Shown: positions 47,466-64,000 of the stretch, one piece after another
How the letters are laid out: every line of letters begins with the position of its first letter
Numbering within the stretch: position 1 is the stretch's first letter
Made by a program: the position numbers and the translations under genes
Source of the DNA: Mesostigma viride
Taxonomy: Eukaryota > Streptophyta > Mesostigmatophyceae > Mesostigmatales > Mesostigmataceae
Length of the DNA: 64,000 nt
Direction: 5' to 3'
Assembly (NCBI GenBank): GCA_009746045.1
Contig: RPFO01001141.1
Span: 62,001 to 126,000, forward strand
The notes under the pieces: model-generated
The model's input: the letters and a program-made list of their open reading frames with translations, nothing else
What the model was told of the DNA's origin: nothing
Database searches by the model: none

Positions 47466-48990
47466 AGGTGAGATTAATTAATTAATTAATTAATTAAACT
47501 CGTGCTCCCGTTGGGGAGTCACGGAGCACCGAAGTGCTTTTAATCCCTGTGTGTGCACTACAGGAGAAAGGGCAGAGACCCCCAGTCTCCTTCATGCCTA
47601 AGGCATGCCACAGCTGCAATCGGGCGCGGCTAGCTAAAAGGACAGGCTAACGATCCGGCAAACTGTGGGTGCAATAAGACCCATGTGAGCATATCATAGC
47701 AAGGAGCGTGGGCAAGTAATCTGAACATAGCCACCTGGGCGTAGCATGGCTGTACTAGGACTAGGCTAAGGCTACGGCTGGTTGTGTACCGTGCGTTGGC
47801 GGCACGTGACTAGGTGTGTTGGCACAGCTAGGCAACATTCTAGGCATGGCTGCCTTAGCGGCAGTGACGCCAATGGTTACAAGCTAGGGCTATTGCTATT
47901 CTAGCCCGCTGGGGGCGTCCACATCTTGTGGTTGATCATCAGGTCCCCGCCCCTCCAGTACACCTTGGGCTTCTGGGGGTCCTGCTTATGGCGGAGGTAT
48001 TCCGGCCACAGGTCGCGTCGCTGCTGTTGCTGAGCGGGGGTGAGGTCGTCATCCAGCGTCCAGGTGAGGTCGTGCAACCGCTTGCGACGAGAGAGGAACC
48101 GCTGCTTATCCTCAGGGGAGGGGAAGGTGAGTAGGACTGGTGGGGGAGCCGCCTTGTCCCGTGAGTGGGGAAGGCGGTGGCACCCACGCAGTTCTACCTC
48201 ACCTACCAGGCCCATGAGGGTAAGAAGCTGGTTCTTGAGCTCGTCAGCAAGAGAGGTTGACGTCTCACCTGGCTTCTGGGGGAAGCGACGTAGCACCACT
48301 CGGCACTCGCGGCGAGCGCGGTCGGTGACCTCCCGTTGCTGGGCCTGGCGGTGGTCCTCCAGCTCCTGGAGCTTTGTGGCGATGGCGTCGGTGGTGGAGG
48401 CGGTCGCTGACCGCAGCAGGTCCGCGTAGGAGAGCGGCGGGAGGTCGCCAGCATCCTGCCGGGGTGGCTGGGATGCAATGGTGGCCGTCTGCTCCGCTAT
48501 CTTGGGGACCTGTGTGGCCAGGGCCTCGGTGTGGGCGGTGATGGCCTCAAGCTTCTTCAGGAGCACGCCATGCACTTGCCCTCCACCTGGTTAAGGCGAG
48601 AGACAAGTGCAGCATGCGTTTCCGAAGCCTGCGCCGCGGTGTGTAGCGCCGTGAACTGGGGTTGTAGCTTGTGGACGACCTTGGTTTCCACGTTGGAGAC
48701 CCGGGCTTCCACCGTGTTGAGCGTCGTGTTCAGCGAGGTCAGCTTCTCGGCCAACGGCCAGGTCACGTGCTCCTCCAGCACTGCACGGATGTCATCCTTG
48801 CAGAGGGAGGAAGCCGATGTGGCTGTCGGCCGCGCAGGCTGGGCTGGGGTGCGGATCCTGGCGACAATTGTGCTCATAGGTAGCTGGAAGTAGCTGCACA
48901 TGATGGCGATGCGGTGGTTGAGCTCTGGCCTGGCAAGGAACCTGAGTCTCCAGGTCGTCGGCGGGGATGGAGTTAGTCTCCATGCTTTGC
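47466..48990 (-). mobile_element. Second ORF1-only retroposon, divergent subfamily
   Basis: Same plan as the element at 35860-37940: on the minus strand an ORF1-type gene, a 3' UTR of about 430 bp and a (TTAA/ATTA)n tail (47466-47489), with no reverse transcriptase. The 3' terminus is a variant (ctccccaacgggagcacgag) of the family motif. The left flank is a copy of the hairpin-repeat arm at 47448-47466. The 5' border near 49,000 is uncertain and no TSD was found. Confidence 0.7.
47901..48901 (-). pseudogene. LINE ORF1-type protein, second copy, one frameshift
   Basis: The N-terminal frame (48901-48557) encodes a long heptad-rich helix (EKLTSLNTTLNTVEARVSNV). The next frame (48575-47901) continues it and ends with the RRM-like and C-terminal domains (CRVVLRRFPQKPGETSTSLA, APPPVLLTFPSPEDKQRFL, VYWRGGDLMINHKMW). 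These align with the protein at 36448-37793, including the shared GETSTSL, TLDDDLT.AQQQ and VYWRG blocks. The two frames overlap at 48557-48575, indicating a one-base indel. The product would be an RNA-binding retrotransposon protein. Confidence 0.72.
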
Positions 48991-49460
48991 TGTAGACTAA
49001 GTCTCAAAGGCATTGTGAATACAACGTATGAATAAGCCTTGTAAACCTACGTTGGTATGTGAATATAAATACCACGTGGGCTATGCAGATAGGAATGCTA
49101 GTCGAGTCGCATACGTTTCCCTAGATAGGTACTTTGGGTACTGAGGTACGTGACAGATGTCAGTACCCAGTATACGTAGTGTCCTGTCATTGGACGGTAC
49201 TAGAGTATCCTAGATAGGGACCGTACTGCAGCGTGCATTGATTGTGATCGCACGATGCAGTGACTAGACAGCTACCTGTCATCGTGCGGCCTCGGGCCAA
49301 CGGTCTGCACCCAACGGTCACTGGCGGCGCAGCCGGTGAGAGGAACGTTGATAAAGGGTAAACCTATTTTCTAATGAACCAAGCAATTCATTGCTCACAG
49401 CCTTCAGTGTTCTCAAGCAATATATCCCACCGCATTCTAACTTGAATTTTATTTGCTACC
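48991..49460 (+). promoter_or_regulatory. Probable 5' LTR/leader of the copia-like element
   Basis: It contains a TATA-like tataaatacc at about 49,064 and several short self-similar segments (ccctagatagg, gtactgaggtac, cagtacccag). No second LTR can be sought because the element is cut at 53286. The LTR is inferred, not shown. Confidence 0.35.
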
Positions 49461-51909
49461 ATGGCTATCACGAACAAGAATGTCGCTAAGAAGCTTACCT
49501 ACAACGAGGATGATGATGGGCAGGATCGGCGGATGCCCAGAGACAACAACAAGAAGCCGGCTGGCGATGCGGCCATTTCCAAGAAAAAGAAAAAGAACAA
49601 AAAGACTCACAATGGTTGCCAGGACGAGGGGACGGCGGCTGCAAAGCCGACCGACCTACCCCCCTCCCCTGCGAGGCCGGAGGCCGAGACGGCTCCCCCC
49701 GGGGAGACCGGCTTACCCTCGACTCCGGCGGCCGCCCCAGCCGCAACCACGGCTGGCGCGGCCATGGCTGCGGAGACCTCGGTGGTAAACCCCACTGAGG
49801 CTCCACAGTCCGGCCCCACGTTGCCATCTCTTCGGGAGCGTATGCCCCGTCAGACGGCCTCGGTGGCACCGGACGGGACGATTACCTTTCGTCCCGCCAC
49901 ATCAAACCTTAATGTCCCTTTCGCCCAGGGACATAACCACATTGAGCTAACGTTTGGGCGACCCTCTGCGTCCCTTCTTCGCAAGAAGAAGGACATGGAG
50001 AGTATTAAACTCGCACGGGTGGTGCGAAAACCTGTGGAACCCATCGCCGGACAACCAATGTCCGACGATGAGGTATCCGACACTGCCAGTCTCCCCGATG
50101 GGGAGACTGAGATCAATCTTACCCCAGCGCTCCTGGCGGTCGAGCAGGCCGCGCTGGTGGCAAATGAAGAACGCCGAGCGCGGCAGCGGGACCGAGAGGT
50201 CCGCCGAGAGGCGGCTTTTCGGCTCGCCGCTAAGCGGCAAGAATATGAAGAGGAAGCCGCCCGTCGCCTGGCTACCCACCAGGCGATGGCGGACGCGTAC
50301 CGCGAGGCCACCCAGCGGTTACGTGACCTCTTAAAAAATGCTGACTATCCCATGGACTATGCGGACAGTCAAGACCTGGCCGAGCTTGCTCGGTCAGCAC
50401 ACTTTAAAACCATGTCCTCCATCACCCAAGCCAGGGTCACGGAGGCCATCTTGGCCAAACATGGGGTGGTAGCTGAAGAAGCCCCCCCGCTGGAAACCAC
50501 CAGCAAGAAACCCTCTCCCCCCAACCCCTGCAGTACAAGGAGGGACTGCTGGCCCTGGGCGCGAGGAAGGGCAAAGAGGCGGACTGTCCAGTCCGGCCTG
50601 CTATGATCATGGGAGACCACTCCCTGACATACCCGAGGATGAGGCTGCCTTTCAGGCAGCCCTCCGGGAGCATGAGGTACGCAAGGAGATGAAGCGTCTC
50701 ATGCGGGAGGAGGCCAGGAGGAGAGCAGAGGCAGACACCCCTGCCCGCCCCTCCACCGATGGGGCTGGACCCAGTGGGGTTACCCGGACACCCCCGGGCT
50801 CCCCCAGGGCCACCATGACCCCCCTCCCCCTCCCCCACCACCCCAGGTTCGCCCTGTGGGTTGGGGCCCCCTCCCAAACCAGGGGGGGTGGCCAGGACCC
50901 CAGGAGGCCCTGGGGGGAGGTGCAGAGGTGCCACAGGCACCCAACAGGCCTGCTGAGGCCCCCCCAAGGAGCGGGGATGTCCTGGAACAGCTCGCCATTC
51001 TCCAGGCCCAGCTGGCCTCGTTGCAAGATCAGCAGTTAACAGCTAACCAGCTGCAAACTGTCGAGGGCCTGCGCGCCCTGATGTCGCGGTATGAGCGGGG
51101 GACCATCAACCTGGACCCCACCCGCCTGCAACAAGCAACCGACGCTTCTTGAGGGCCAACCCCCCTCTCACAGGTGTGTTTAACCCTCATAAAAAGGAAT
51201 CCAAAATCAATATTGCTGGCTTGCCTGAGGGTCACACTGTTGAACAAGCTAAGCAATTTGTTTTTGCTTTGGAGTATGGGATGGAAGGTCTTAACCTTAG
51301 ACATCAGTTTAAGGCTCTCAGGGCCTCCTCCACATTCCATCAATCATCTCCTGCAATCAGAGCATTGATTCAAACCTATCAGGAACGTACCCTGACACCT
51401 GAAGCAGCCATTGAACAGTGGCCTACCTTTATCACTGATCTGAAACAGCTAGTGCTTACCAATAACCACATGGAAGCAGTAGAACGTTTCAACTGGCTTG
51501 CTGCATATAAGGTGAACAAGAATAACCTCTCTGGGGATGCAAAAACATACAGGGTAATGATTGAGAAAGACCTTGAGCTTCTCAAGCTCCAACCAAGGTA
51601 TCTCATCCACACCTGGCTAACAAAAGCTAATTTGCAACCTTCTGTCCTGGCTACCCTGCTTACAGGCCTCAAGTCCCTCTGGGACAACTTCAGAGCTGCC
51701 ATGCTCTATATCGAGGAGGCAGTGGACCCCCTGGGTACTGGCAACAACCAGGCCCAGGACCCCAAGGTCCAGGGTGTCCAAGGCCACAAACGCAAGGGGC
51801 AGGCCAGCCAGGGGGGGCACCCAAGACCCACAAGTCCTCCCACCAAGGGGGCAGTGGCTCTCAGGGGCGTGGCAACACGTGGCACCGTGTGCCCCTGCAT
51901 GGCAACCCC

Positions 51910-51943
<34 letters not shown>

Positions 51944-53286
51944 GGTCCCAGCAGGGCAACAATAACAACAGGTCCCAACAGGGCCAAAACAACAACAACA
52001 ACAGGTCCCAGCAGGGCCAGAACCGGTCCCAGCAGGGAAACAACAACAACAACAACACCAACAACAACCAGCCTGGCAACCCTGGGGGGTCCATAAGGTG
52101 CCTGAGGTGCTTCCAACGAGGGCACGCACGGCACAACTGCCCCAACAACGACTCCCTGGCCAACGGGGTGGATCTCTGCCCGGGCTGCTGGCACGCACGT
52201 CATCCCCTGGGGCCTCCAGGCAGCCGTTGCAACAGGCCTCGCTACCCAAATCAATGTGAGTTCACTCACCTTATGTACTCTGAGGATGATGATCTCATTA
52301 CCATTGGGGATGGCAACCAGGGCATAATTGATTTTGAGGCAGCAACCTTACTGTCCTCCCAACACCCTGTTCTGGAACCTTACATAAAAGCACTAACCCC
52401 TACTGTTGACAACTCCATAGATATCAAGGAGCTTGCTCATCAGCTGCACCTAGCCATGGGTCATGAAACAGTGGCTGAGGAACTGGCCAGACGGCTGGGG
52501 GGTAGTAGCATGGGAAAACAACTCAGGAATGCAGTAAAACTGGCTAGACAACACTGTCAAGAATGTCAGTTCAATAGCCCCAAACCTCAAAAATGGCATA
52601 CTGCAACTCCTTCCACCAATAGGGGCATGATAGTGGGGGATGTGATGCACATCAACAAAGATGTCCAACCCTACCTGATCCTAAAAGACTCATGGTCCAG
52701 GTTCACAGTAATGGAACCCCTACCTGGCATGTCTGCAGGGCAGCTACGTGTTGCACTCATGATTGCTTTACCCAGATTCTACCCAGTTGACAGAATTTTG
52801 CTTGATCAACAATTTTCTTGTCTGACTGACCTGGAAGGGTGTGAAGCAATAGAGATTGCTGGGCTGGAAGATCATGAGGGTCAGGGGGTCATTGAAAGAA
52901 CCATCAGATCTGTCAAAACCCTACTAGCCAAAAATCCTTCCAAGGATGCTACTTCAGGGGTCTATTGTGACAGGGCACTCTGGTGTCATGAAATGTGCAC
53001 AACCCTAAACATGAGACCTGTCTTGCATGCCACGTGGGGTGAAGTAATCCCAGCAGGCCTGCAGGCAGGTGTATATCCCCCAGAGGTGATAGCGCTGTAC
53101 AACACTGCACGTGCACAAACCTCAGCAAAACTGGCAGAAAAAGATAAAACCCATTCCAGGCCAGTATTCCAAAAAGGTGATCAAGTTCTCTATTACAAGG
53201 AAAACAGCTTTGGTAAGGTTGGAACTTGGCTAGGTCCAGTTACCATCCGTGGATTTACCAAAAACAGCAAGACCGTGGAGGTCAAG
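49461..53286 (+). mobile_element. Copia-like retroelement, Gag and integrase, truncated before reverse transcriptase
   Basis: The coding frame starts with ATG at 49461 and runs, with about four single-base shifts (near 50,515; 50,885; 51,145; 51,835), through a Lys-rich N-terminus and a helical Gag core (FVFALEYGMEGLNLRHQFKA). A Gln/Asn-rich segment encoded by CAA/AAC repeats follows, then a CCHC zinc knuckle (CLRCFQRGHARHNC, about 52,098-52,140), an HHCC zinc-binding stretch (LHLAMGH...CQEC) and a DDE integrase core. The core's Asp, Asp and Glu lie in GDVMHIN, RILLDQQ and GVIERTI. A C-terminal SH3-like segment (KGDQVLYYKENSFGKVGTWL) follows. Gag then integrase is the copia order, but no protease motif is evident and the reverse transcriptase that should follow is absent. 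Sequence beyond 53286 belongs to the palindrome. The 51.1-53.3 kb part is lower in GC than its surroundings. Confidence 0.72.
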
Positions 53287-53478
53287 CCCAGCAACTACGT
53301 GAGCTACCCCCCCAGAGCCTCTGCAGCCCCCAGTCCCCCTGGACCCCCTAGACCCCCTAGACCCCTTGGACCCCCCGGAGCCCCCGGTCCGAACAGAAGT
53401 CCTGTAATCTCCACCGCCGCCGTCGCCTGTCCCGGCCCCGGGAGGCGGCGAAGGGGCAAACGAGGGGGGAGAAGGTAA
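51889..53478 (+). CDS. Gag zinc knuckle-integrase frame running into the palindrome
   Basis: The open frame has 529 codons. Residues about 7-65 are Asn/Gln/Ser-rich. A CCHC knuckle and the integrase domain follow as described for the element. Up to SNYVSYPP the protein looks like genuine integrase C-terminus. From about residue 470 it becomes Pro/Gly then Arg-rich (PGPPRPPRPLGPPGAPG), which is simply the edge of the inverted repeat being translated. The C-terminal ~60 residues are therefore a chimeric extension created at the junction near 53287. The listed start is the first start-like codon in frame and is probably internal to the real Gag. Confidence 0.6.
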
Positions 53479-54106
53479 TCCACCTCCGACCGGCGAGAGG
53501 GGCCGGAGAGGCCCCGCCGATTTCGCTCGCCCCCCGCCCCGGCCCTCCCGATGGGCGACGCTTGCTTGGATTCTCTTGCACTACTTCTTTTTTAGACTCT
53601 TTCAAAAATAATTATATGGGTAATGAAAAATTGCAAAGGGTATAGGCTATATATAGGGCTATATATACAGGAATAATATTTCCCGGGGTGGCTGAAAAAG
53701 AAGTCGTGCACGAGAATCCACTCCACCTCCGATGGTCGGGGGCGGCGGGAGAGGTGGCGGCAGGTTCGCTCGCCCCCGTCCCGGGTCCGTCGCGCCCCGA
53801 GTCTGGATGTGTTTGAAACGTCCTTTTCCCTCCTGGAGGGGCGGCGCGGGCGGGTGGGGGGTCGAGGGTGGATGAGAATGCGTGGTTTCGGTCGGGCTTC
53901 TTTTGGGCTCGGATCCGTTCCAGTCTGCGTCCCGGCGCCCCCCGGGCCGGGGTTGGGAGGGGGTTGCGCTCGCCCCCGGGACGGCCGTGTGGGTGGTCCG
54001 CTACCCTGGGCCCGGCGACCCTGAGTAAGTGACGGGTGCAAGTCTACGTCCCGGCGCCCCCCGGGCCGGGGTTGGGAGGGGGTTGCGCTTACGGGGAGGG
54101 AATAAA

Positions 54107-55035
54107 ATGTGGGGGTACGATAACAGCGGCGACGGGCGAGAAACGGAGATGGCAACCCCGGAGTTCTACGTGACGAACGACGCGGAGGACAAGTGGCGCC
54201 AGAGGGTGGGGTCTTCGGTGCAGACCTTCAACTCTGCCCTGCGGTACAAGTGCGCGAAGACGGGGAGGGGGTTCAAGCGTTTCCGCGAGTCGAAGGCCCG
54301 CGACATGTGGGACGGCAAGTGCGCCAAGTGCGCGACCCCGATCCGCTTCCACTCGTCGTCGGAGGTCCCCCGCATGGGGATCCTGGTGCGTTATCTGGTC
54401 CCGGACGGCGCGGGGCTGTCTCTGACCGAGTCGTCGACGGGCATGCCCCCCGAGTGGAGGTGCGGGCGTTGCAGGGTGGGCCCTCTGGAATCGGAGTACG
54501 ACGAGCTGAAGCACCTCAGGATGGAGGAGGAGTACCTGCGCGCCCGGAAGGGGCTGCCCATCCCGGACGACTCCCCGCCCGTGCTGCCCTTCCCGGAGGC
54601 GGCACCGGCCGGGAAGCGGCCCAGGAGCCCTTGCCAGCATTACGGGGAGTGCCCCCCGATGTCGACCCCGCGGTGTGGTCGCACGTGAAGAAAGCGTTCT
54701 ACGGCGTGCAGTCGAGGGTGAAGGCCGACCTGCCCCTGAGCTGGCAGTCCACGCCCCACGGGGAGCGAGACCTGTCCCCGCGCCTGCTGGAGGCCGTCAG
54801 GAAACTGGAGAGCCAGGAGTGGCGCTGCGGCCACTGCGAGGGGCGGATGTCGCTGGACTCCCCTGAGCTCGCCCCGTCCCCCGACAAGACGGACACGTTC
54901 GACAGGACGTACTTCCCCGACAACTACAGGTGGCTGCACGCGGGGTGCAACCGGGCCAAAGCCGTGGACGACTCCATAGACCAGTGCAGGCGCAGGATGG
55001 CGGAGTACGAGAAGCTGCCGGACCCCGTGGAATGA
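54107..55035 (+). pseudogene. HNH/zinc-ribbon endonuclease-like gene, left palindrome copy, frameshifted
   Basis: Same sequence as the right-arm copy at 55686-56615, but with six rather than seven C in the run at about 54651-54656. The frame from ATG 54107 therefore stops at 54688, and the remainder (to 55035) lies in another frame. All other parts, including the AATAAA at 55051-55056 after the stop, are retained. The difference may be a real inactivating indel or a homopolymer error. Confidence 0.75.
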
Positions 55036-55104
55036 TGAACGCCGTATGCTAATAAAGACACCCCTCGTCCAATGCCACGTGTCACCTCATCGCTAGACAG
55101 TCCC

Positions 55105-55245
55105 AAAGCAAAAAGGGCCAAAGCATAAGGGGCTGGTTTCAAACAGGGTGGGCCAGCATAAGAGGCTGGTTTCAAACAGGGTTCGCCAGCATAAGGGGCT
55201 GGTTTCAAACAGGGTGGGCCGGGTTTGACAGCATAAGGGCCGGTG
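55105..55245. repeat. ~33-bp tandem repeat near the left side of the palindrome centre
   Basis: Three to four copies of a unit with cagcataaggggctggttt followed by caaacagggtgggc. The mirror array lies at about 55,476-55,616. In both arms the array is about 115 bp from the centre, the position at which subtelomeric repeats lie in some linear viral genomes. Confidence 0.8.
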
Positions 55246-55685
55246 CGGTTACTGGAAAAAATATCTAACCCCATGGTATAGGATATACCTGAGAGTCTAG
55301 GCCCCTACCGGCCCTGTCCAGGGCCTGCCATGGGACATGTCCCCGGGACTGATCAGAAACGTTTCTGATCAGTCCCGGGGACATGTCCCATGGCAGGCCC
55401 TGGACAGGGCCGGTAGGGGCCTAGACTCTCAGGTATATCCTATACCATGGGGTTAGATATTTTTTCCAGTAACCGCACCGGCCCTTATGCTGTCAAACCC
55501 GGCCCACCCTGTTTGAAACCAGCCCCTTATGCTGGCGAACCCTGTTTGAAACCAGCCTCTTATGCTGGCCCACCCTGTTTGAAACCAGCCCCTTATGCTT
55601 TGGCCCTTTTTGCTTTGGGACTGTCTAGCGATGAGGTGACACGTGGCATTGGACGAGGGGTGTCTTTATTAGCATACGGCGTTCA

Positions 55686-56615
55686 TCATTCCACGGGGTC
55701 CGGCAGCTTCTCGTACTCCGCCATCCTGCGCCTGCACTGGTCTATGGAGTCGTCCACGGCTTTGGCCCGGTTGCACCCCGCGTGCAGCCACCTGTAGTTG
55801 TCGGGGAAGTACGTCCTGTCGAACGTGTCCGTCTTGTCGGGGGACGGGGCGAGCTCAGGGGAGTCCAGCGACATCCGCCCCTCGCAGTGGCCGCAGCGCC
55901 ACTCCTGGCTCTCCAGTTTCCTGACGGCCTCCAGCAGGCGCGGGGACAGGTCTCGCTCCCCGTGGGGCGTGGACTGCCAGCTCAGGGGCAGGTCGGCCTT
56001 CACCCTCGACTGCACGCCGTAGAACGCTTTCTTCACGTGCGACCACACCGCGGGGTCGACATCGGGGGGGCACTCCCCGTAATGCTGGCAAGGGCTCCTG
56101 GGCCGCTTCCCGGCCGGTGCCGCCTCCGGGAAGGGCAGCACGGGCGGGGAGTCGTCCGGGATGGGCAGCCCCTTCCGGGCGCGCAGGTACTCCTCCTCCA
56201 TCCTGAGGTGCTTCAGCTCGTCGTACTCCGATTCCAGAGGGCCCACCCTGCAACGCCCGCACCTCCACTCGGGGGGCATGCCCGTCGACGACTCGGTCAG
56301 AGACAGCCCCGCGCCGTCCGGGACCAGATAACGCACCAGGATCCCCATGCGGGGGACCTCCGACGACGAGTGGAAGCGGATCGGGGTCGCGCACTTGGCG
56401 CACTTGCCGTCCCACATGTCGCGGGCCTTCGACTCGCGGAAACGCTTGAACCCCCTCCCCGTCTTCGCGCACTTGTACCGCAGGGCAGAGTTGAAGGTCT
56501 GCACCGAAGACCCCACCCTCTGGCGCCACTTGTCCTCCGCGTCGTTCGTCACGTAGAACTCCGGGGTTGCCATCTCCGTTTCTCGCCCGTCGCCGCTGTT
56601 ATCGTACCCCCACAT
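55686..56615 (-). CDS. HNH-type endonuclease-like protein with zinc ribbons, right palindrome copy (intact)
   Basis: The ATG at 56615 gives 309 residues (MWGYDNSGDGRE...). Three Cys-pair modules are visible: CAKCATPIRF (about residue 75), WRCGRCRVGP (about 126) and WRCGHCEGRM (about 252). The last is followed by TFDRTYFPDNYRWLHAGCNRAK, which matches the end of an HNH/treble-clef nuclease fold (Asp-Arg, then Asn, then His..CN..K). The role would be DNA cleavage, perhaps as a viral homing-type or genome-processing nuclease; this is inference from the fold motif. AATAAA follows the stop on this strand. The start region contains two copies of a GC-rich ~48-bp block (tcccggcgccccccgggcc) that may be promoter repeats. 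An alternative upstream start at 56687 adds 24 residues translated from that repeat and is less likely. Confidence 0.65.
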   Translation of the reverse strand: MWGYDNSGDGRETEMATPEFYVTNDAEDKWRQRVGSSVQTFNSALRYKCAKTGRGFKRFRESKARDMWDGKCAKCATPIRFHSSSEVPRMGILVRYLVPDGAGLSLTESSTGMPPEWRCGRCRVGPLESEYDELKHLRMEEEYLRARKGLPIPDDSPPVLPFPEAAPAGKRPRSPCQHYGECPPDVDPAVWSHVKKAFYGVQSRVKADLPLSWQSTPHGERDLSPRLLEAVRKLESQEWRCGHCEGRMSLDSPELAPSPDKTDTFDRTYFPDNYRWLHAGCNRAKAVDDSIDQCRRRMAEYEKLPDPVE

Positions 56616-57411
56616 TTTATTCCCTCCCCCGTAAGCGCAACCCCCTCCCAACCCCGGCCCGGGGGGCGCCGGGACGTAGACTTGCACCCGTCACTTACTC
56701 AGGGTCGCCGGGCCCAGGGTAGCGGACCACCCACACGGCCGTCCCGGGGGGCGAGCGCAACCCCCTCCCAACCCCGGCCCGGGGGGCGCCGGGACGCAGA
56801 CTGGAACGGATCCGAGCCCAAAAGAAGCCCGACCGAAACCACGCATTCTCATCCACCCTCGACCCCCCACCCGCCCGCGCCGCCCCTCCAGGAGGGAAAA
56901 GGACGTTTCAAACACATCCAGACTCGGGGCGCGACGGACCCGGGACGGGGGGCGAGCGAACCTGCCGCCACCTCTCCCGCCGCCCCCGACCATCGGAGGT
57001 GGAGTGGATTCTCGTGCACGACTTCTTTTTCAGCCACCCCGGGAAATATTATTCCTGTATATATAGCCCTATATATAGCCTATACCCTTTGCAATTTTTC
57101 ATTACCCATATAATTATTTTTGAAAGAGTCTAAAAAAGAAGTAGTGCAAGAGAATCCAAGCAAGCGTCGCCCATCGGGAGGGCCGGGGCGGGGGCGAGCG
57201 AAATCGGCGGGGCCTCTCCGGCCCCTCTCGCCGGTCGGAGGTGGATTACCTTCTCCCCCTCGTTTGCCCCTTCGCCGCCTCCCGGGGCCGGGACAGGCGA
57301 CGGCGGCGGTGGAGATTACAGGACTTCTGTTCGGACCGGGGGCTCCGGGGGTCCAAGGGGTCTAGGGGGTCTAGGGGGTCCAGGGGGACTGGGGGCTGCA
57401 GAGGCTCTGGG

Positions 57412-57505
57412 GGGTAGCTCACGTAGTTGCTGGGAAGGCTTTAGGGTGGCTTTCACCGTGGCTAAGGCACCCCTAAACCCTTCCCAGCAACTGCGTGAGT
57501 GACCC
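57412..57505. repeat. Stem-loop at the right edge of the palindrome
   Basis: ctcacgtagttgctgggaag...ctttagggtgg pairs with a following inverted copy (cacccctaaaccc...ttcccagcaactgcgtgag), giving an imperfect stem of about 28 bp around a loop near 57,455-57,465. The palindrome's outer boundary (57434) lies inside the left strand of this stem. Confidence 0.75.
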
Positions 57506-57690
57506 CCTCTTTTCCCCCTGTTCCCCCCTGCGTGTCCCCCCGTTCCGCGCCGAGTGCTTGGGGACCCCGCAGCGTGTCCCCCCTGCGTGTTCCCCCGTTC
57601 CCCCCTGCGTGTCCCCCCGTTCCGCGCCGAGTGCTTGTCTGTTTCCCTGTTCCCCCGCGCGTGATTGTCTGTCCCCCGCGCGCGAGTCCG
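57505..57690 (+). repeat. Degenerate C-rich repeats upstream of the first viral gene
   Basis: Repeated blocks built from cccccctgcgtgtccccccg and ttccgcgccgagtgcttg (two full copies, near 57,540 and 57,615) fill the space between the stem-loop and the gene at 57804. No coding frame is credible here. Confidence 0.7.
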
Positions 57691-57803
57691 TGATCGAGAG
57701 TACGAGTGGCAAGTCCGTGATCAGAAACGTCTCCGCTGGCGGTGTGCGTGCGTTTATGGTCGCGCAAAAATAATCTCGTCGTTCGGCATATCAGTGTCGC
57801 GCC

Positions 57804-58403
57804 ATGACGCATCCGGGTTGGTTGTCCGAGGCGCGTCTGATGTGCGAGTTCGTGGGCGCGTGCGTGCAGCCGTCGTCGCACATCCAGGAGTGGCCGGTGG
57901 CGGGCAAGCTGGCGGACGCCTTCAACGCGTTCCTCGCGGCGAAGGGTCTGCCCCCGTACGCCGCGTCCCGGCTGGCAGGCCCCTGCCCGGGGGCGGACGA
58001 CCTGGCCCTGTGGTCCGGCGTGCTGGCGGGCAAGGGGGGCGTGCTGATGCACGTGGCGGGGGTCGCTGGGGGCGAGAGCGGGGGGTGGTACTGGGCGCAG
58101 AACGTGTCGCTGGTCCATCCGGCTCCCGTGCCCTCGGACGGGGAGGTGAAGCCGTTCCCCCCTTGGTTCAACGGGGAGCGTTTCCTGGCTGCCCGCGAGG
58201 CGGGCAAGAGGCGCGAGGAGATGCGCAGGTGGGTGAGCGCGTACGCGGGCGAGCACGGGCTGTTCGCGGAGATCACGGAGGAGGAGGAGTCGTTCCTGGA
58301 GGAGTGCCACGGCTACCCCGAGGGCGAGATGGCGGACCTGAAGGGCCTGCGCGAGATCCGCGCGCACATGGCGAAGGTGGGCGGCGCGCCCCCGCGTGGA
58401 TGA
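57804..58403 (+). CDS. Uncharacterised viral-type protein, upstream member of an overlapping pair
   Basis: Starts with ATG at 57804 and has 199 residues. Helical, mixed-charge composition. The first 50 residues (RLMCEFVGACVQPSSHIQEW, DAFNAFLAAKGLPPYAA) have the spacing of a small helical or winged-helix DNA-binding domain like those at the C-terminus of D5/P4-type primase-helicases. That is a fold impression only. The C-terminal half is rich in Glu and Arg. Its stop codon overlaps the next gene's start as ATGA (58400-58403), suggesting coupled or re-initiated translation, or a single ancestral protein. I do not recognise a family. Confidence 0.6.
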   Translation: MTHPGWLSEARLMCEFVGACVQPSSHIQEWPVAGKLADAFNAFLAAKGLPPYAASRLAGPCPGADDLALWSGVLAGKGGVLMHVAGVAGGESGGWYWAQNVSLVHPAPVPSDGEVKPFPPWFNGERFLAAREAGKRREEMRRWVSAYAGEHGLFAEITEEEESFLEECHGYPEGEMADLKGLREIRAHMAKVGGAPPRG

Positions 58404-58921
58404 ACGAGCGCGTCCGCGAGATCCGCGAGCGGCTCACGGCGGCGTTCAGCCGCAAGCAGGGTTCGTCCTCGCGCTGGCGCCTGCGCGACAACCAGGCGGG
58501 CGACGCGCTGACGGCGCGGCTGAAGTGGCGGTCGGCGGAGGAGGAGGAGCACGACCTGCAGGGGTCGGGCGAGGCGCGGGGCGGGCGCGAGGAGGAGGGC
58601 AAGGAGCGCGAGGCGGCGGCGCTGGACACGTACCTGCGGCTGTTCCTGCAGCACAGCGACCTGGTGGTCCTGGAACGCGGCGGGCGCCTGCCGCTGGCGG
58701 AGTTCCGCCGCCTGTTCTTCGTGGAGTACCTCCAGAACGGCAGCCGCATGACGCGGCGAGTGCCCAACGCGGACCTGGCCGCCCTGCTGGCCCCCCACGG
58801 GGTCGCCGTGACAGGAAACGTGCGCATGGGCAGCGGGGAGGAGGAGAAGCGCACGGTGTGGGTGACGGGGGTGGCCCGGAGGGCGCTAGGAACGACGCGT
58901 AATAATAATAATGATGAATAA
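58400..58921 (+). CDS. Uncharacterised viral-type protein, winged-helix-like C-terminus
   Basis: The ATG at 58400 (MNERVREIRERL) gives 173 residues. The N-terminal third is highly charged (Glu/Arg). Residues about 75-170 (LFLQHSDLVVLERGGRLPLA, EFRRLFFVEYLQ, LAALLAPHGVAVTG, VWVTGVARRA) alternate helices and strands in the order of a winged-helix DNA-binding domain as found after D5-like primase-helicases. This is inference. The TAA stop is embedded in aataaa (58917-58922), a usable polyadenylation signal. A long frame extends 245 codons upstream but overlaps the preceding gene in another frame. The ATGA start is preferred because the two genes then abut neatly. Confidence 0.6.
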   Translation: MNERVREIRERLTAAFSRKQGSSSRWRLRDNQAGDALTARLKWRSAEEEEHDLQGSGEARGGREEEGKEREAAALDTYLRLFLQHSDLVVLERGGRLPLAEFRRLFFVEYLQNGSRMTRRVPNADLAALLAPHGVAVTGNVRMGSGEEEKRTVWVTGVARRALGTTRNNNNDE

Positions 58922-58963
58922 AACCTCGATGGATGCAATACAGTGAGCGCAAATGCACGGTAT

Positions 58964-60012
58964 TCAGCGCCGCCTCCGCACGGCACTCTGTGGCCTCCTG
59001 ACCCGCCTGGCGGCGGTGGGGTGGCCGGGGTCCGGTGGCGGTGGCGAGGGCGGTGGCGGGCCGTAGTTGTCCATCCACCATCGGTAGGCCGCTTCCGGGT
59101 CCGCCCCCGCCTTGCCTTTGTCCCGGTGTCGCCTCTCCTGCTCGCTGGCGGGTGGAGGGACCAGCCACCTGGGGTCGGCGGGTATCTGTTGTGGCAGTTC
59201 CGGCTGGGGAGGAGGAGGGCTTTGTCGTCGAGAGGGACCGCTTTCCGTACCGGCGGATCTCTTCGCCATCCGTCGGAGACGCTGGGATTCTAGCTTACTG
59301 GCCCGTCGTTTTTCCGCCCATGCGACGGTGGCAGCTGGGTCTTGGCTCTTTAATAGTTCGGTGCGTCGTTTCTCCCTTTCCTTCTTCAAGGCCCGTTCTT
59401 TTTCCGCCCATTCGACGGCGGCTGGGTCTTGGCTCTTTCTCAGTTTGGCGCGTGAATCCCTCAATTTGCGATTTTTGACTTCGCGATTCGTCTCCTGCCC
59501 TTCCTTGGCGTTCTTTTCAAGCCATTGTCTACCCCTAGCCCGGACTTTTTCTACCCATGCAGTGTCGTCGGGGTCCTTGCTCTTTCTCAGTTCAGCATAT
59601 CTTTCCCGGGCTTTGCGATTTTTGGCTTCCGATCGCGCGATGTCGTCGGGATCCTTTCTCTTTTTCAGTTCAGCGTATCTTTCCCGGGCTTTGCGATTGC
59701 TGGCTTCTCTTTGTGTTTCCTGCCTCTGCGCCTGTTGCCGCCCGCCCCCTCCTCGTCACCCGCCTGGGCGGATCGCTCCTTCTCGTACGCGTCCAGGTCG
59801 AAAAAGTCGTCTGGTCCTGGTCCCGCCTCGTCGAGGTCCTGGGGGTCGTCGAGGTCCTCTAAGGTGGGCATCTCGGCCATGTTAAGCGGGTCACCGGGCT
59901 CGGCCTCCTCGAAGCGGGCCAGCTCGTCCATGTCTAGGTCCCCCAGGCCGTCGTCGTCTCCCGGATCGTCCGCCCGCACCCTGTGTCTTCGGGTCGCTCT
60001 CCGCCGCGCCAT
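58964..60012 (-). pseudogene. Acidic/basic repeat protein split by a frameshift
   Basis: The N-terminal frame, from ATG 60012 (MARRRATRRHR), is strongly acidic (DDPGDDDGLGDLDMDELARF) and ends at 59665. A second frame, open from about 59,745 without any ATG, reads through three copies of a basic repeat of the form RKARERYAELRKSKDPDD and continues to a Pro-rich end at 58964. Since the second frame has no start of its own and the repeat begins where the first frame becomes unlike protein, one gene with a one-base shift near 59,715-59,750 is the simplest reading. Corrected length would be roughly 350 residues. The repeat looks like a helical, nucleic-acid-binding charge pattern. Function unknown. 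Confidence 0.6.
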
Positions 60013-60230
60013 GTCCTCGAGTACACCCGGCTGCGAAAATATTTCATCCTCCACAGGGTCACATCATATGTGAAGGCACCTCCGCAAACGTTTTTGACGC
60101 GGTGAAAACCGGCCCCAACGAGGACCGCGGCATCTGGATCCACACCAAGCCACCCCCTAGGGATGTGGATCAGCCCATATTTCTGGAGCTGGCCAATATT
60201 TCCGTGTTTTGTGATCACTTCCGTTTCCAT
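59934..60230 (-). CDS. Small protein with AbrB/MazE-like swapped-hairpin motif
   Basis: The ATG at 60230 gives 98 residues. Residues 1-45 (EVITKHGNIGQLQ, YGLIHIPRGWLGVDPDAAVL) have the pattern of the AbrB/SpoVT/MazE DNA-binding hairpin: K-x-G near the start, x-IP-x-x-x-LG, then an acidic turn and a Val-rich strand. That family is common in prokaryotes and rare in eukaryotic viruses, so this is tentative. The last ~40 residues overlap the start of the next minus-strand gene in another frame and are probably not functional sequence. On the opposite strand a 58-codon frame starts within the same CCATGG (60229). Confidence 0.45.
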   Translation of the reverse strand: METEVITKHGNIGQLQKYGLIHIPRGWLGVDPDAAVLVGAGFHRVKNVCGGAFTYDVTLWRMKYFRSRVYSRTWRGGERPEDTGCGRTIRETTTAWGT

Positions 60231-60659
60231 GGTCAGGGGCGAGGAGGATACAGTACTGGAGAAGCTCGGGCCCGGTTTGGGCGTGCTGGGGTACTACGAG
60301 GAGGCAAGGGAGTACAGGGGCCTGGAGTTTGCCGGGCCCAATAAACGCCTGATGGGCGCGAACAGGTGTTTCAATCGCGAGGGCCGCGCAAGACTGGCCG
60401 CTTGATTGGCCACGATCGCCGTGCCCTGAAATGGGAATCCCCCCATCACAGATCATCTACCTGTGGTGCATAATGGGATCTACCCTTGAATCTTCCAAGG
60501 AGCAGAAGCGATTTTAAAACTAGTGATTGGTCAAAGACCTTTATCGCGGCCTTGCAGAGGCACTGAGATACCCCAACATGAACCTGACAAAGACGAAGTT
60601 TATTTATTAAATGTTCATAATGTTTACGGTTTATGACTCAAGTCCTACCATCGTTACTC
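60231..60659. other. Intergenic in the virus-like region
   Basis: Only a 58-codon plus-strand frame (60229-60405) and antisense shadows occur. No motif was recognised. It contains AT-richer sequence from about 60,500 that could hold the 3' end of the minus-strand gene at 60660. Confidence 0.4.
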
Positions 60660-61403
60660 TCATACATCGTCGTAAAAGTCCTCGTCTAGTGCGAGTTCGA
60701 TGCCGCATCCTTCACAAACTTGTTCGATGGTTCGGATATGTTCAGGGTTTACCTTGCCAGTCCGAAAGATGAATAAACGTTTTTGGTACCCCGGAAAGTA
60801 ATGCCCGTAACTGAAGAGCTGTCCGATGCCCTTCATCCAATCTTTAGATTCTTTCACTTCCACGATGACGGGAGGGTCATGGGCAATGATGTCAATCACA
60901 CCGGCAGGGCATTGTACTTCGCGCTCACTACCCGGCATGGCTTGTGACACTCGTTCTTGAACGGGTGACTCTCTTTGTTGTACCGGTGGTTGCTTGGCCC
61001 ATTCGACGACTTTGTCCACCAAATCGACATGGATCCACGCGCCTCGCTCGTCAACTGGGCCGGTCCTCATGATCTTCACCACGGGAAAAACTGTCTGAGG
61101 AGGGGTCGCCTCACCCCCCATGAGGCCCACACAGTGATGTGTTGACCTCTCCAGAGCCGATATGAAGGCCTTAGAACCGTCAAGACGAAACCAACTTTCG
61201 AAGCGCTTCTTCCCGTTGGACGCTGCCGCCGTCAAGTCCTGGGCATGGACCATTCGGTCGCTCTTCCGGACCTTGATTTCCTTCTTGGGGTCCACTTCCA
61301 GAATTGAACAGGGTTTCAGCGCAAACATCCAAAACGTGTCGGTCTCTCTCGCCAAGTCGAACAACGCGCGGGTGAAAGGAGCTCGACCACTGACGATCGC
61401 CAT
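60660..61403 (-). CDS. KilA-N domain fused to a PD-(D/E)XK nuclease-like domain
   Basis: The ATG at 61403 gives 247 residues. Residues about 1-135 match the KilA-N pattern of large DNA viruses and phages: MVHAQDLTAAASNGKKRFES, WFRLDGSKAFISALE, then ERGAWIHVDLVDKVVEWAKQ. A Gln/Pro/Ser linker follows. Residues about 165-247 have a restriction-endonuclease-like core: GVIDIIAHDPPVIVEVKESK (Asp...Glu-x-Lys), then GIGQLFSYGHYFPGY and a strand RLFIFR. KilA-N binds DNA; the D..ExK motif suggests metal-dependent cleavage or a nuclease-derived binding fold. This two-domain protein is the strongest single marker of viral origin in the window. The gene is intronless and flanked by non-coding repeats. Confidence 0.78.
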   Translation of the reverse strand: MAIVSGRAPFTRALFDLARETDTFWMFALKPCSILEVDPKKEIKVRKSDRMVHAQDLTAAASNGKKRFESWFRLDGSKAFISALERSTHHCVGLMGGEATPPQTVFPVVKIMRTGPVDERGAWIHVDLVDKVVEWAKQPPVQQRESPVQERVSQAMPGSEREVQCPAGVIDIIAHDPPVIVEVKESKDWMKGIGQLFSYGHYFPGYQKRLFIFRTGKVNPEHIRTIEQVCEGCGIELALDEDFYDDV

Positions 61404-62277
61404 GGTTGCAGATGGGAGCGTGGCGGCGGATGTTTGGACGCCCGTTTCTCGTCCGCTTCCTTCCTGGCGGCCGCAAAACGGACGTGACCCTGTCCGCGGA
61501 CGTCCGTGTGACTCCCGACGGATGGATCTCTGTGATCGATGTGATTAGAAATGCGAGTTAAATATAACCCCTATTGAGTGATAGGGGCTTGTGGGGTACC
61601 GGGGAGCTATTATTGAGTGATGATGATTGAGTGATAATTGAGTGATAAAATATTGGAGTTTTTTTGACTTTTTACTGACACCCGTCACGGGCTTACTGCC
61701 CCTTCTCAACCCCCGCCAACCTTGGCTCGAGGGTCGCCGGGCTTTAGAGGTGCTTTATAATGCTGGCATCCGTCACCACCAGCCGTGGGGCTGCCGCCTA
61801 CCGATCCCCTCCTACTCCCGAGCCTGGGGGTGCGATGGTTCGTGACGGGCGTGAAAAGTGTGACTTCCGTTTTGCTCAACCATGACCGACCGCGGACAGC
61901 GGGGTTGGGTGAGAACTGTGGGAGAAGGTTCGGCGTTCTGCCCAACTTTTATACCAAAAGCTTTTAAGAGTTGGGCAGAACGCGGGACCTCGAAAAGTCA
62001 AGCTCACCGCCCAGCGCGCACCCGGGTCGATGGGCGGCGTGAAAAATGTGACTTCCGTTTTGCTCAACCATTACCGACCGCAATTGGTGAGGTCGTGAGT
62101 CTCGATCTGGTGAGAGGGCGGGTAACTGCGGTGGTGCATGCAAATGGAAAATGAAATCGGATTGGATCACACTTTATTGCACATTATAATAACACTTTAT
62201 TGCCAGTTATCATCACCCTTTATTGCCAACATCCATTACTGCATCCGGTTGCATCAACCGACATACAACAGGGTGAG
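61404..62277. other. Viral intergenic region with duplicated 43-bp motif and hairpin
   Basis: About 870 bp without a credible gene. It holds several attgagtgat repeats (61,570-61,645). A 43-bp motif containing gtgacttccgttttgctcaa occurs twice (61851-61893 and 62039-62081, three mismatches, 188 bp apart). A 15-bp-stem hairpin lies between them at 61933-61983. The layout suggests a regulatory or replication site. Confidence 0.6.
61933..61983. terminator. Hairpin with 15-bp stem
   Basis: gcgttctgcccaact is followed, after 21 bases, by its exact reverse complement agttgggcagaacgc. It lies midway between two copies of a 43-bp direct repeat. It could be a terminator, a protein-binding palindrome or part of a replication element. 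Confidence 0.6.
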
Positions 62278-63042
62278 CTAGTAGAGGTCGTTCCATCGGC
62301 CGATGAGGGAGCGCTCCTTGTTGTAGCGGAAGAAGGGGAACACCAGCGCGGGGCTCTGGCACATCTCCCTGCGCTCCGCCAGGCAGATGGGGCACTTGAG
62401 GTCCTCTGCGGGGTCGGCGTCGTCGAGCGCGACGGCCATGCACATGGCGCATATCGAGGGTGCGTGGGTGTGGTCGCCTTCCGTCACGGGCTCGTAGGCG
62501 TCCCAGCAGACCCCGGGGCAGCACGCGCACTTCCCCACCATGCGCGGGGCAAGGCTCCCCCGGCAACGATACATGTTATCGAGGCTGGCATCAATTTCCT
62601 CGCGAAAAGAGGCAGAATAAGGGGGCGACCAGAAGGGATCGACCCTGTATGGCAGCCACGGCGACATTTCGAGATGTCCCGGCAACAGCGGTTCGTAGGA
62701 GAATTCGGGGACGATCTCCATGGCGTTGCGCGTGTTGGCCGCCGGCCCCGAATTCCTCCTGGTTGATACGTAGAGCCGGATGGCCGCCTCCTTGGCGAGG
62801 GCCAGGTTGTGCACGGTGATAGCTCGCGGCGTCGAGGCGGCCGTGACGTGTTCCGAGGTGCAGAGGAGTCCTTTCGACAACCCGCGGCACTGCACGCACT
62901 GCGCGTACCTGCCACCCAGGAAATGGTTGGGATTCTTGCTCTCCTGGCACCGGCCGCATCGTACCGGCGTGTCCATTTTCATGTCCTGCTTCATCATCAT
63001 GAATTCCTCCCTTATCTTGGCGGAATCGCGCGAGGCCCCCAT
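62278..63042 (-). CDS. Viral-type zinc-finger protein with RING-like C-terminus
   Basis: The ATG at 63042 (MGASRDSAKIRE) gives 254 residues. Near the N-terminus is a zinc-ribbon, RCGRCQESKNPNHF...AQCVQCR. The C-terminal third has many Cys/His in RING-like pairs: CACCPGVCWDAYEP, HAPSICAMCMAV, LKCPICLAER, with the last CPIC typical of RING and related E3 folds. It may act in protein degradation or protein-nucleic acid binding; the spacing is not canonical, so E3 activity is unproven. The reading frame is clean and GC-rich like its neighbours. Alternative Met codons exist at residues 15-17 (MMM) and 21. Confidence 0.65.
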   Translation of the reverse strand: MGASRDSAKIREEFMMMKQDMKMDTPVRCGRCQESKNPNHFLGGRYAQCVQCRGLSKGLLCTSEHVTAASTPRAITVHNLALAKEAAIRLYVSTRRNSGPAANTRNAMEIVPEFSYEPLLPGHLEMSPWLPYRVDPFWSPPYSASFREEIDASLDNMYRCRGSLAPRMVGKCACCPGVCWDAYEPVTEGDHTHAPSICAMCMAVALDDADPAEDLKCPICLAERREMCQSPALVFPFFRYNKERSLIGRWNDLY

Positions 63043-63589
63043 GGCTGCGTGCGTCGTTTGCGTGAATGCCGAGGTCTGTCTACGGTCTGCCCAAAATGTA
63101 ATGGACTCGACTCTTCTCTCGCTCTCCCCGGCGCCCCACGTGGCAGGTCGCCTATATCATGCATCCCTCGCGGCAAGGCCCGGCGCGCGCTCTGTGTGGC
63201 GCTCCCACGTGGCTGGGGGCGTTTCCCGCCTTCCGCGCTGTTCTCTCGCGGGTTCGGTCGGATAAGCTGACGGAGGCGTTTTCTCGCGGGCTCGGGTCGG
63301 GACAAGCTGGCGGGGTCCTTCGCCTGGTGGACTGACGTCACACGAGCACGATCCCGCTGGGTCCGAGAGGCGGTTACGGAAAGGGGCGGATGTGCATAAA
63401 CAGGGGCGATACCCCGCGGGCCTCCAGGCCGCCTGACCGCTCCAAGATCGCAGTACACCAGGCCGTCTGACCGCTCTGCCACTCGCTTTCCCACTTGTCC
63501 TCACAGATCGCCTGCTGGGGCGTCAAGTCTTGCTACATTCATGGGTGCGTGTTCTCGTCGGCAAACCCCGTGACAGCGTGTGAGGGGGG
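63043..63589. other. Upstream region with short degenerate repeats
   Basis: It contains two tandem copies of a ~45-bp unit with ctcgcgggttcggtcggata and agctgacgg (63,240-63,315), and a partial duplication of gccgcctgaccgctc near 63,430-63,475. No gene is seen. It probably includes the promoter of the zinc-finger gene. Confidence 0.5.
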
Positions 63590-64000
63590 GCGTTCTTCGT
63601 GGCAGGATGCTCTCGATTGCTGGATGTCGCATGAGGGCCGCATTCTCCGTGGCGAGATGGGAATCGGGATTCGATGCCGTATGAGAGCTGCATTCCTTGT
63701 GGCAGGACGTTGTCGATCGCTGGATGTCGTTTGAAGCCAGCATTCTCCGTGGCGAGATGGGAATCGGGATTCGATGCCGTATGAGAGCTGCATTCCTTGT
63801 GGCAGGACGTTCTCGATCGCTGGATGTCGTTTGAGGCCCGCATTCTCCGTGGCGAGATGGGAATCGGGATTCGATGCCGTATGAGAGCTGCATTCCTTGT
63901 GGCAGGACGTTGTCGATTGCTGGATGTCGTTTGAGGCCCGCATTCCTTGTGGCAGGACGTTGTCGATCGCTGGATGTCGTTTGAGGCCCGCATTCCTTGT
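63590..64000 (+). repeat. Array of 50-bp units of two alternating types, running off the window
   Basis: Every unit is exactly 50 bp and begins gcattc or gcgttc. Type A starts gcattctccgtggcgagatg; type B starts gcattccttgtggcaggacg. Order: B' (63590), A (63640), B (63690), A (63740), B (63790), A (63840), B (63890), B (63940), B (63990, cut). Open frames across the array are an effect of the periodicity (150 bp equals 50 codons) and have no independent support as genes. Confidence 0.92.

Follow-up and report, generated by a model that had tools for sequence, protein, structure and literature searches.

The stretch of the Mesostigma viride genome analyzed here covers 64,000 nucleotides of contig RPFO01001141.1 (C1431:62001-126000, from now on referred to as the window) and contains a long palindrome, P, located between a host retroelement and a virus-like segment referred to as segment B. 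Two inverted arms of 2,074 bp (53287-55360 and 55361-57434) abut without any spacer, as the original prediction of a spacerless 4.15-kb palindrome had stated, and their gapped alignment contains 0 substitutions and 8 differences, all of them one-base length changes in runs of C or G. Around the center, the half-arm is exact for 709 bp, compared with 12 bp for the runner-up among exact zero-spacer palindromes in the window. The center itself (55360/55361, within 55351-55370), where GATCAGAAAC meets GTTTCTGATC, is shared by the copies of P read in this study and is proposed below to be a telomere tip.

On the host side, P borders a long terminal repeat (LTR) retroelement (48968-53286, plus strand), recognized from its copies and from unoccupied sites as the insertion target. 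It is present in high copy number (40 copies scored of 586 candidates), gave a weak zinc-knuckle match alone in Pfam and was judged Copia-like by reading its frames. Two unoccupied copies read GAGGTCAAG directly followed by CACAAT across the insertion site; because they place the element edge at 53288, the pairing of 53287 with 57434 is one of a target C with a junction base, and P proper spans 53288-57433. Its outer edge is formed by an A-type end, CCAGCAACTACGTGAG (53288-53303, plus strand; end-motif census and unoccupied site), preceded by a probable target dinucleotide (53286-53287, plus strand) assigned from the unoccupied site and from the duplication known from elements elsewhere. At the inner edge, a second A-type end (57418-57433, minus strand; end-motif census) is followed by J, a 50-bp spacer (57434-57483) reaching from the inner A end to the inner G end and seen in all copies read. 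Segment B begins with a G-type end carrying an inverted end repeat of ~340-390 bp (57484-57879, plus strand; end census and comparison of B ends). With the end designated x beside J, it fills the rest of the window (57484-64000, plus strand) and was followed at least to the contig end ~6 kb further on, where no far end had been reached. B also contains 100/200-bp tandem repeats at 63590-64000. P had been predicted to sit at a host-virus boundary with the retroelement on the left; the right edge is no plain host/virus edge, as P runs there into an imperfect 98-bp inverted repeat (57410-57507) present in 21/21 copies read.

The search for further copies covered 440 Mb in 2,243 contigs. Other loci had been suggested as a place to look for the arm sequence, and it does recur, with at least 110 matches among those listed (40 of 119 candidates scored), many of them arranged as head-to-head pairs. 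Twenty paired copies were fetched which, together with the window, gave 21 copies from ~15 loci that were read; further paired copies on C1535 (2.94 Mb), C1502 (1.93 Mb), C91 and C2067 were not fetched whole. All 21 copies contain the zero-spacer center at the identical place. At one edge, variable host sequence lies beside CCAGCAACTACGTGAG, this edge being absent from the stretch read in L024, L025 and L026, and at the other edge every copy continues through the inner A end, the 50-bp spacer and the G end, CCAGCAACTGCGTGAG, into ~380 bp of common sequence. Three pairs of copies with a common outer flank look allelic (window/L009, L014/L016 and L020/L021), L013 and L015 have a simple-repeat flank in common, and L023/L024 and L025/L026 were judged allelic from their arms and neighboring sequence only. 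Palindromes of 4 kb that are nearly perfect thus apparently persist in the nuclear genome, at some loci on both haplotypes. In L025 (C2214) and L026 (C1585), both arms carry a single insertion, of ~11 kb in one arm and ~1.4 kb in the other; both insertions are found in the two presumed haplotypes, and neither is mirrored in the opposite arm.

These copies bear on whether the structure could be produced by sequencing or assembly. The arm differences of the window all fall in C/G runs, as is typical of long-read error, but an artefact would have to recur at ~15 loci, in presumed allelic contigs that agree with each other and with target duplications around the elements. It would also have to join one edge of each copy to its own host sequence and the opposite edge to J, and to give locus-specific repeat counts that are equal in both arms. 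We therefore regard an artefact as extremely improbable. The assembly join at 57434 that had been suspected is not borne out, the same junction recurring in 21/21 copies read, and a one-off trapped telomere is ruled out, as the structure recurs regularly as the end module of elements dispersed through the genome.

The complete element can be described as host, A end, arm, center, inverted arm, A end, 50-bp J, G end, segment B, G end, host. When the whole genome was scanned for the A/G end motif, 74 forward and 64 reverse exact sites were obtained, against 0 for a control pattern, and 100 of these 138 sites were listed. Full-length bounded elements measure ~37 kb (C1), 92 kb (C887), 104 kb (C1502), 76 kb (C1107) and 40 kb (C1790, where the A end was taken from arm matches and a separate end reading). 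Small derivatives, ranging in length from 80 bp up to 20 kb, likewise have one A and one G end; the tiniest, which resemble miniature inverted-repeat transposable elements, are 80-246 bp long, carry 2-bp duplications and lie on C998, C1535, C1690, C1724 and C552. None of the 100 end sites listed (of 138) showed P moving by itself. The outer ends of type A and G are alike in the short end motif only and have no large terminal inverted repeats.

A target duplication of 2 bp was found in 13/13 A-to-G bounded elements with both flanks read, including 5 full-length ones, and flank matches longer than 2 bp occurred among these 13 only in simple repeat and in one other case. Since the duplicated dinucleotides vary (AA, AC, CC, GC, GG, TA, TC, TG and TT) rather than being a fixed CC as in phaeovirus-type integration, the sequences suggest insertion by a staggered cut and not recombination at a fixed core. 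Further, an element on C1776 bounded by two G ends is flanked by TA on both sides, and a rearranged composite on C1468, also with two G ends, lacks a duplication.

J is predicted to fold back (57401-57520, -74 kcal/mol with RNA parameters), and its inner 40 nt are oriented as in the window in 19 copies (18 scored together, and L025 from a separate reading of the junction) and inverted in two, L017 and L018, a rare inversion between inverted end motifs. It could be argued that J rather than the center of P is a hairpin telomere, with the imperfect 98-bp repeat existing in two orientations like the flip and flop forms of poxvirus tips. The predicted stability and the inverted pair L017/L018 are in line with this idea, but an orientation of 19:2 is not a mixed one, the two sides of J are flanked by different sequences, both outer ends of the integrated element are without J, and P would be left unexplained. 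We thus give this possibility little credence. The orientation of J is near-fixed in both isomers of the element described below, so J fits an internal site of an inverted terminal repeat (ITR) and not a flip-flop tip.

Segment B is found in two orientations. The 340-390-bp sequence beside J recurs inverted at the far end of B, and beyond this shared end repeat 10 copies, including the window, have the x end near J while 11 have the other end, y, near J (~8 and ~7 loci, respectively). In 4/4 copies with both ends read the far ends are reciprocal, three y-near copies ending in x and one x-near copy ending in y; C1502 supplied a fifth far end, again x. The isomer is identical within each of the six presumed allelic pairs, where in two pairs neighboring sequence partly defined allelism, and because presumed allelic pairs agree, the sequences suggest that flipping of B mostly came before integration. 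Concatemers of the poxvirus type are expected to contain units in random orientation, an expectation matched by the 10:11 ratio of isomers, counted in integrated copies only.

Each arm carries 33-bp tandem repeats near the center (55122-55220 on the plus strand in the left arm and 55501-55599 on the minus strand in the right arm, both from repeat detection) followed outward by one gene. In the right arm, this gene is an intact frame of 295 aa (55686-56573, minus strand) with a zinc ribbon and C-terminal CxxC/DR/N/CNxAK residues; its left-arm counterpart (54149-55035, plus strand) is broken by a one-base C-run length difference at ~54651. The protein gave a Zn_ribbon_SprT match (E 2.1e-05) below the curated cut-off. 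B encodes a relative at its y end (28% identity, E 2e-16 in a single comparison), and the CxxC, DR, N and CNxAK residues are common to both proteins; they may be reminiscent of HNH or endonuclease VII folds. The gene is conserved, diverging by 0.8-0.9% compared with 1.4-6.1% outside it (six comparisons), with too few changes for a usable substitution-rate ratio. No relatives of the protein were found in viral contigs or among solved structures, its fold prediction (mean pLDDT 48) was not used, and the arm DNA has no relative in phage records.

Segment B and related elements carry virus-like genes. In the window, B encodes a KilA-N domain protein (60660-61403, minus strand; KilA-N E 4e-11) whose C-terminus is weakly nuclease-like (NucS_C E 0.018, below cut-off) and which has no relatives in viral contigs. 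A Bro-N match in segment B is weak and falls short of the curated cut-off. An element on C446 that is bounded by an A and a G end and flanked by a TG duplication contains two capsid genes of nucleocytoplasmic large DNA viruses (NCLDVs; PF04451, E 7.6e-30 and 7.2e-33). The same capsid pair lies 95-97 kb from J on C47, the window allele, ~25 kb from J on C1 and ~60 kb on C1585, in each case in a B segment without a found far end. Genome-wide, at least 150 NCLDV capsid-gene matches lie above the family cut-off (150 of 507 candidates scored). Their scores and frame lengths indicate several kinds, and the genome seems to carry many endogenous viruses. One capsid match is located ~1 kb outside the L020 element in its outer flank (C392:15462-16025), perhaps reflecting one viral insertion within another. 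Matches to the end motif and, as a minimum count, to the center motif in viral contigs were taken as chance, the contigs showing no blastn match to the element and short scattered tblastx matches only. A center-like motif in the B end repeat (57720) was dropped because among the ends read it is confined to the window locus and its allele.

The element could alternatively be a large composite DNA transposon of the foldback type, in which the palindromic module hitch-hikes and no virus telomere is involved. Foldback transposons have long inverted arms with tandem repeats, and transposon circles have joined ends; the Mesostigma element is similar in its long repeat-bearing arms and in the ends joined at J, and its short transposon-like ends, 2-bp duplications and internally deleted derivatives would suit a transposon. 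However, it has no spacer, carries cargo of virus size and has asymmetric A and G ends. The NCLDV capsid genes in a bounded element, the KilA-N and Bro-N-like genes and the absence of P alone as a mobile unit from the end sites listed also speak against a transposon origin, which we consider very unlikely.

The symmetry of the arms is informative with regard to how P is maintained. Mean arm difference is 0.08% within a copy versus 1.37% between non-allelic copies, a comparison that needs care as many copies represent a recent burst and are near-identical to one another. The structural evidence is stronger. The 33-bp repeat counts are equal between arms in 18/21 copies; 13 of these are 3/3, and informative equal counts exist at three loci, namely 13/13 (L020, L021), 7/7 (L022) and 5/5 (L023, L024). 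Near the center, one substitution in L017 is mirrored, and another in L016 is not. The diverged copy on C91 is ~71% identical to the window in the inner arm and 95-96% identical in the outer third; the 419 bp read on each side of its center mirror each other perfectly, with the center changed to ATCAGAACG meeting CGTTCTGAT. As repeat counts are mirrored and the C91 copy is mirror-perfect around another center, the palindrome appears, judging from these sequences, to be remade while its sequence changes. In addition, an 8.5-kb B fragment is joined 4-5 nt past the center in the C1468 copy (L058), with an overlap of ~1 base, as if the center had been at a free or broken DNA end. A join exactly at the center with 5-nt microhomology had been considered for this copy and is ruled out by that position, which slightly lowers the odds of the interpretation given next.

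We hypothesize that P preserves, as duplex DNA, a chromosome end that was replicated but not resolved, i.e. the junction of two telomeres of a large DNA virus that integrates, and consider this the probable explanation. The idea of a replication junction in the original prediction is strengthened by the centers of 21/21 copies, the ITR-like order of parts, the ~1:1 isomers, the mirrored repeat counts and the diverged palindrome; the notion of a one-off event does not survive. The parts follow the order center, repeats, gene, J and B end repeat, which is ITR-like, and an ITR layout may be assumed for the free genome. We infer every step beyond the element anatomy itself. The free virus genome would have a linear stage with two identical ends reading center (tip), arm, J, G repeat and B. 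Copying round the tips would turn each tip into P within a head-to-head concatemer or a joined circle, and units joined in random orientation would contain B either way round. The center would normally be cut by a putative resolvase. An integration enzyme would cut beside J using one A end and one G end, a requirement suggested by the small derivatives, which have one of each. P-J-B, with B facing either way, is the smallest part of a concatemer or circle that has one A end and one G end as its limits, and each provirus would therefore hold one unresolved telomere junction.

The main rival is a circular or other non-hairpin genome, in which P would have arisen long ago as an inverted duplication lying between two J sites, its symmetry maintained through gene conversion or hairpin-mediated repair, and the circle would open at one J. 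This rival accounts for the isomers just as well, the sole difference being the way in which symmetry is maintained. Opening a circle of P-J-B-J at either J gives the units seen and 1:1 isomers no less simply than a concatemer does, the meeting of A and G ends at J is like that of the ends joined in a transposon circle, and the protelomerase family search of the genome gave nothing. On the other hand, zero-spacer symmetry over 4 kb in 21/21 copies read and, independently, in a diverged subfamily around another center sequence needs constant repair to the last base, whereas a copied tip yields such symmetry without extra assumption. The join within 5 nt of the center in one copy also fits a circular genome less well, although palindrome centers break as well. 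On balance we regard a circular genome as unlikely, though less so than the other alternatives.

It should be noted that several observations weigh against a telomere junction. The capsid-bearing element on C446 is without P, and with 150 of 507 candidates scored, none of the capsid matches listed falls within the five full-length bounded copies. The ResT/TelK protelomerase family (PF16684) has 0 candidates in the genome, in a search whose control matched 1/14 named genomes. The isomers of B could also come from recombination between the B end repeats. Only in 8/21 copies is an arm nearer to its own partner than to the closest non-allelic arm by at least 2 substitutions, and in 6/21 the partner is further away, by 1 in L010, L011 and L025 and by 3-5 in L015, L016 and L017. 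Repeat counts are unequal in 3/21 copies (L019 3/7, L025 3/2, L026 2/3). Finally, poxvirus tips have mismatched loops, which the perfectly palindromic center lacks, and flip/flop variation is seen at J only (19:2).

Comparable systems are known from algal viruses and poxviruses. As described in PMC13236599, endogenous phaeoviruses of Ectocarpus contain a telRL-like palindromic site, which has been put forward as a hairpin-telomere junction, together with fold-back reads that, according to its authors, may represent either closed telomeres or replication intermediates. The same paper also reports a tyrosine recombinase, insertion at CC and a telomere resolvase gene, and proposes circular and linear forms. 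The Mesostigma elements are similar in being integrated NCLDVs with a palindromic site proposed as a hairpin-telomere junction, but differ from the short inverted repeat, CC target and resolvase gene described there in their 2.07-kb arms, variable 2-bp duplications, two isomers and lack of a detected protelomerase. The vaccinia ITR contains the tip, tandem repeats and first gene, and randomly oriented concatemers with palindromic junctions are formed on replication (PMC8956199); the order of tip, tandem repeats and first gene and the palindromic junction are the same in Mesostigma. Unlike the AT-rich poxvirus tips with mismatched loops outlined there, the Mesostigma center is a perfect palindrome and lies within host chromosomes. 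Chlamydomonas punuiviruses have large terminal inverted repeats, a retroviral-type integrase and target-site duplications, as described in PMC12993054 and PMC13236599. Both groups are algal NCLDVs, possibly latent, with a target-site duplication, here of 2 bp, whereas the outer ends in Mesostigma share just the short A/G motif. No report of integrated copies with long zero-spacer telomere palindromes was listed in a literature search whose coverage left out most subscription papers and preprints, the nearest being PMC13236599.

Elsewhere in the window, the hexamer CTTGCG is present in 70 copies at 31726-32145, and a 305-bp dispersed repeat occurs at 2261-2565 and 35862-36165 (98.7% identical). 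The host side also contains a frame with a cytochrome P450 match (40819-41778).

These elements bear on the question of how giant viruses that integrate in algae and protists shift between linear, circular and integrated states. Tentatively, and with somewhat less than even confidence, we propose a latent large DNA virus whose enzyme needs both A and G ends, such that the mature linear monomer could not be integrated and each provirus would have to be cut from replicating DNA. If this requirement is true, the provirus would store one telomere junction as duplex, a record that might allow hairpin ends to be rebuilt on excision. Many integrated copies preserve the apparent replicated junction, the integration sites and the isomers, which makes the question testable from sequence and simple DNA gels.

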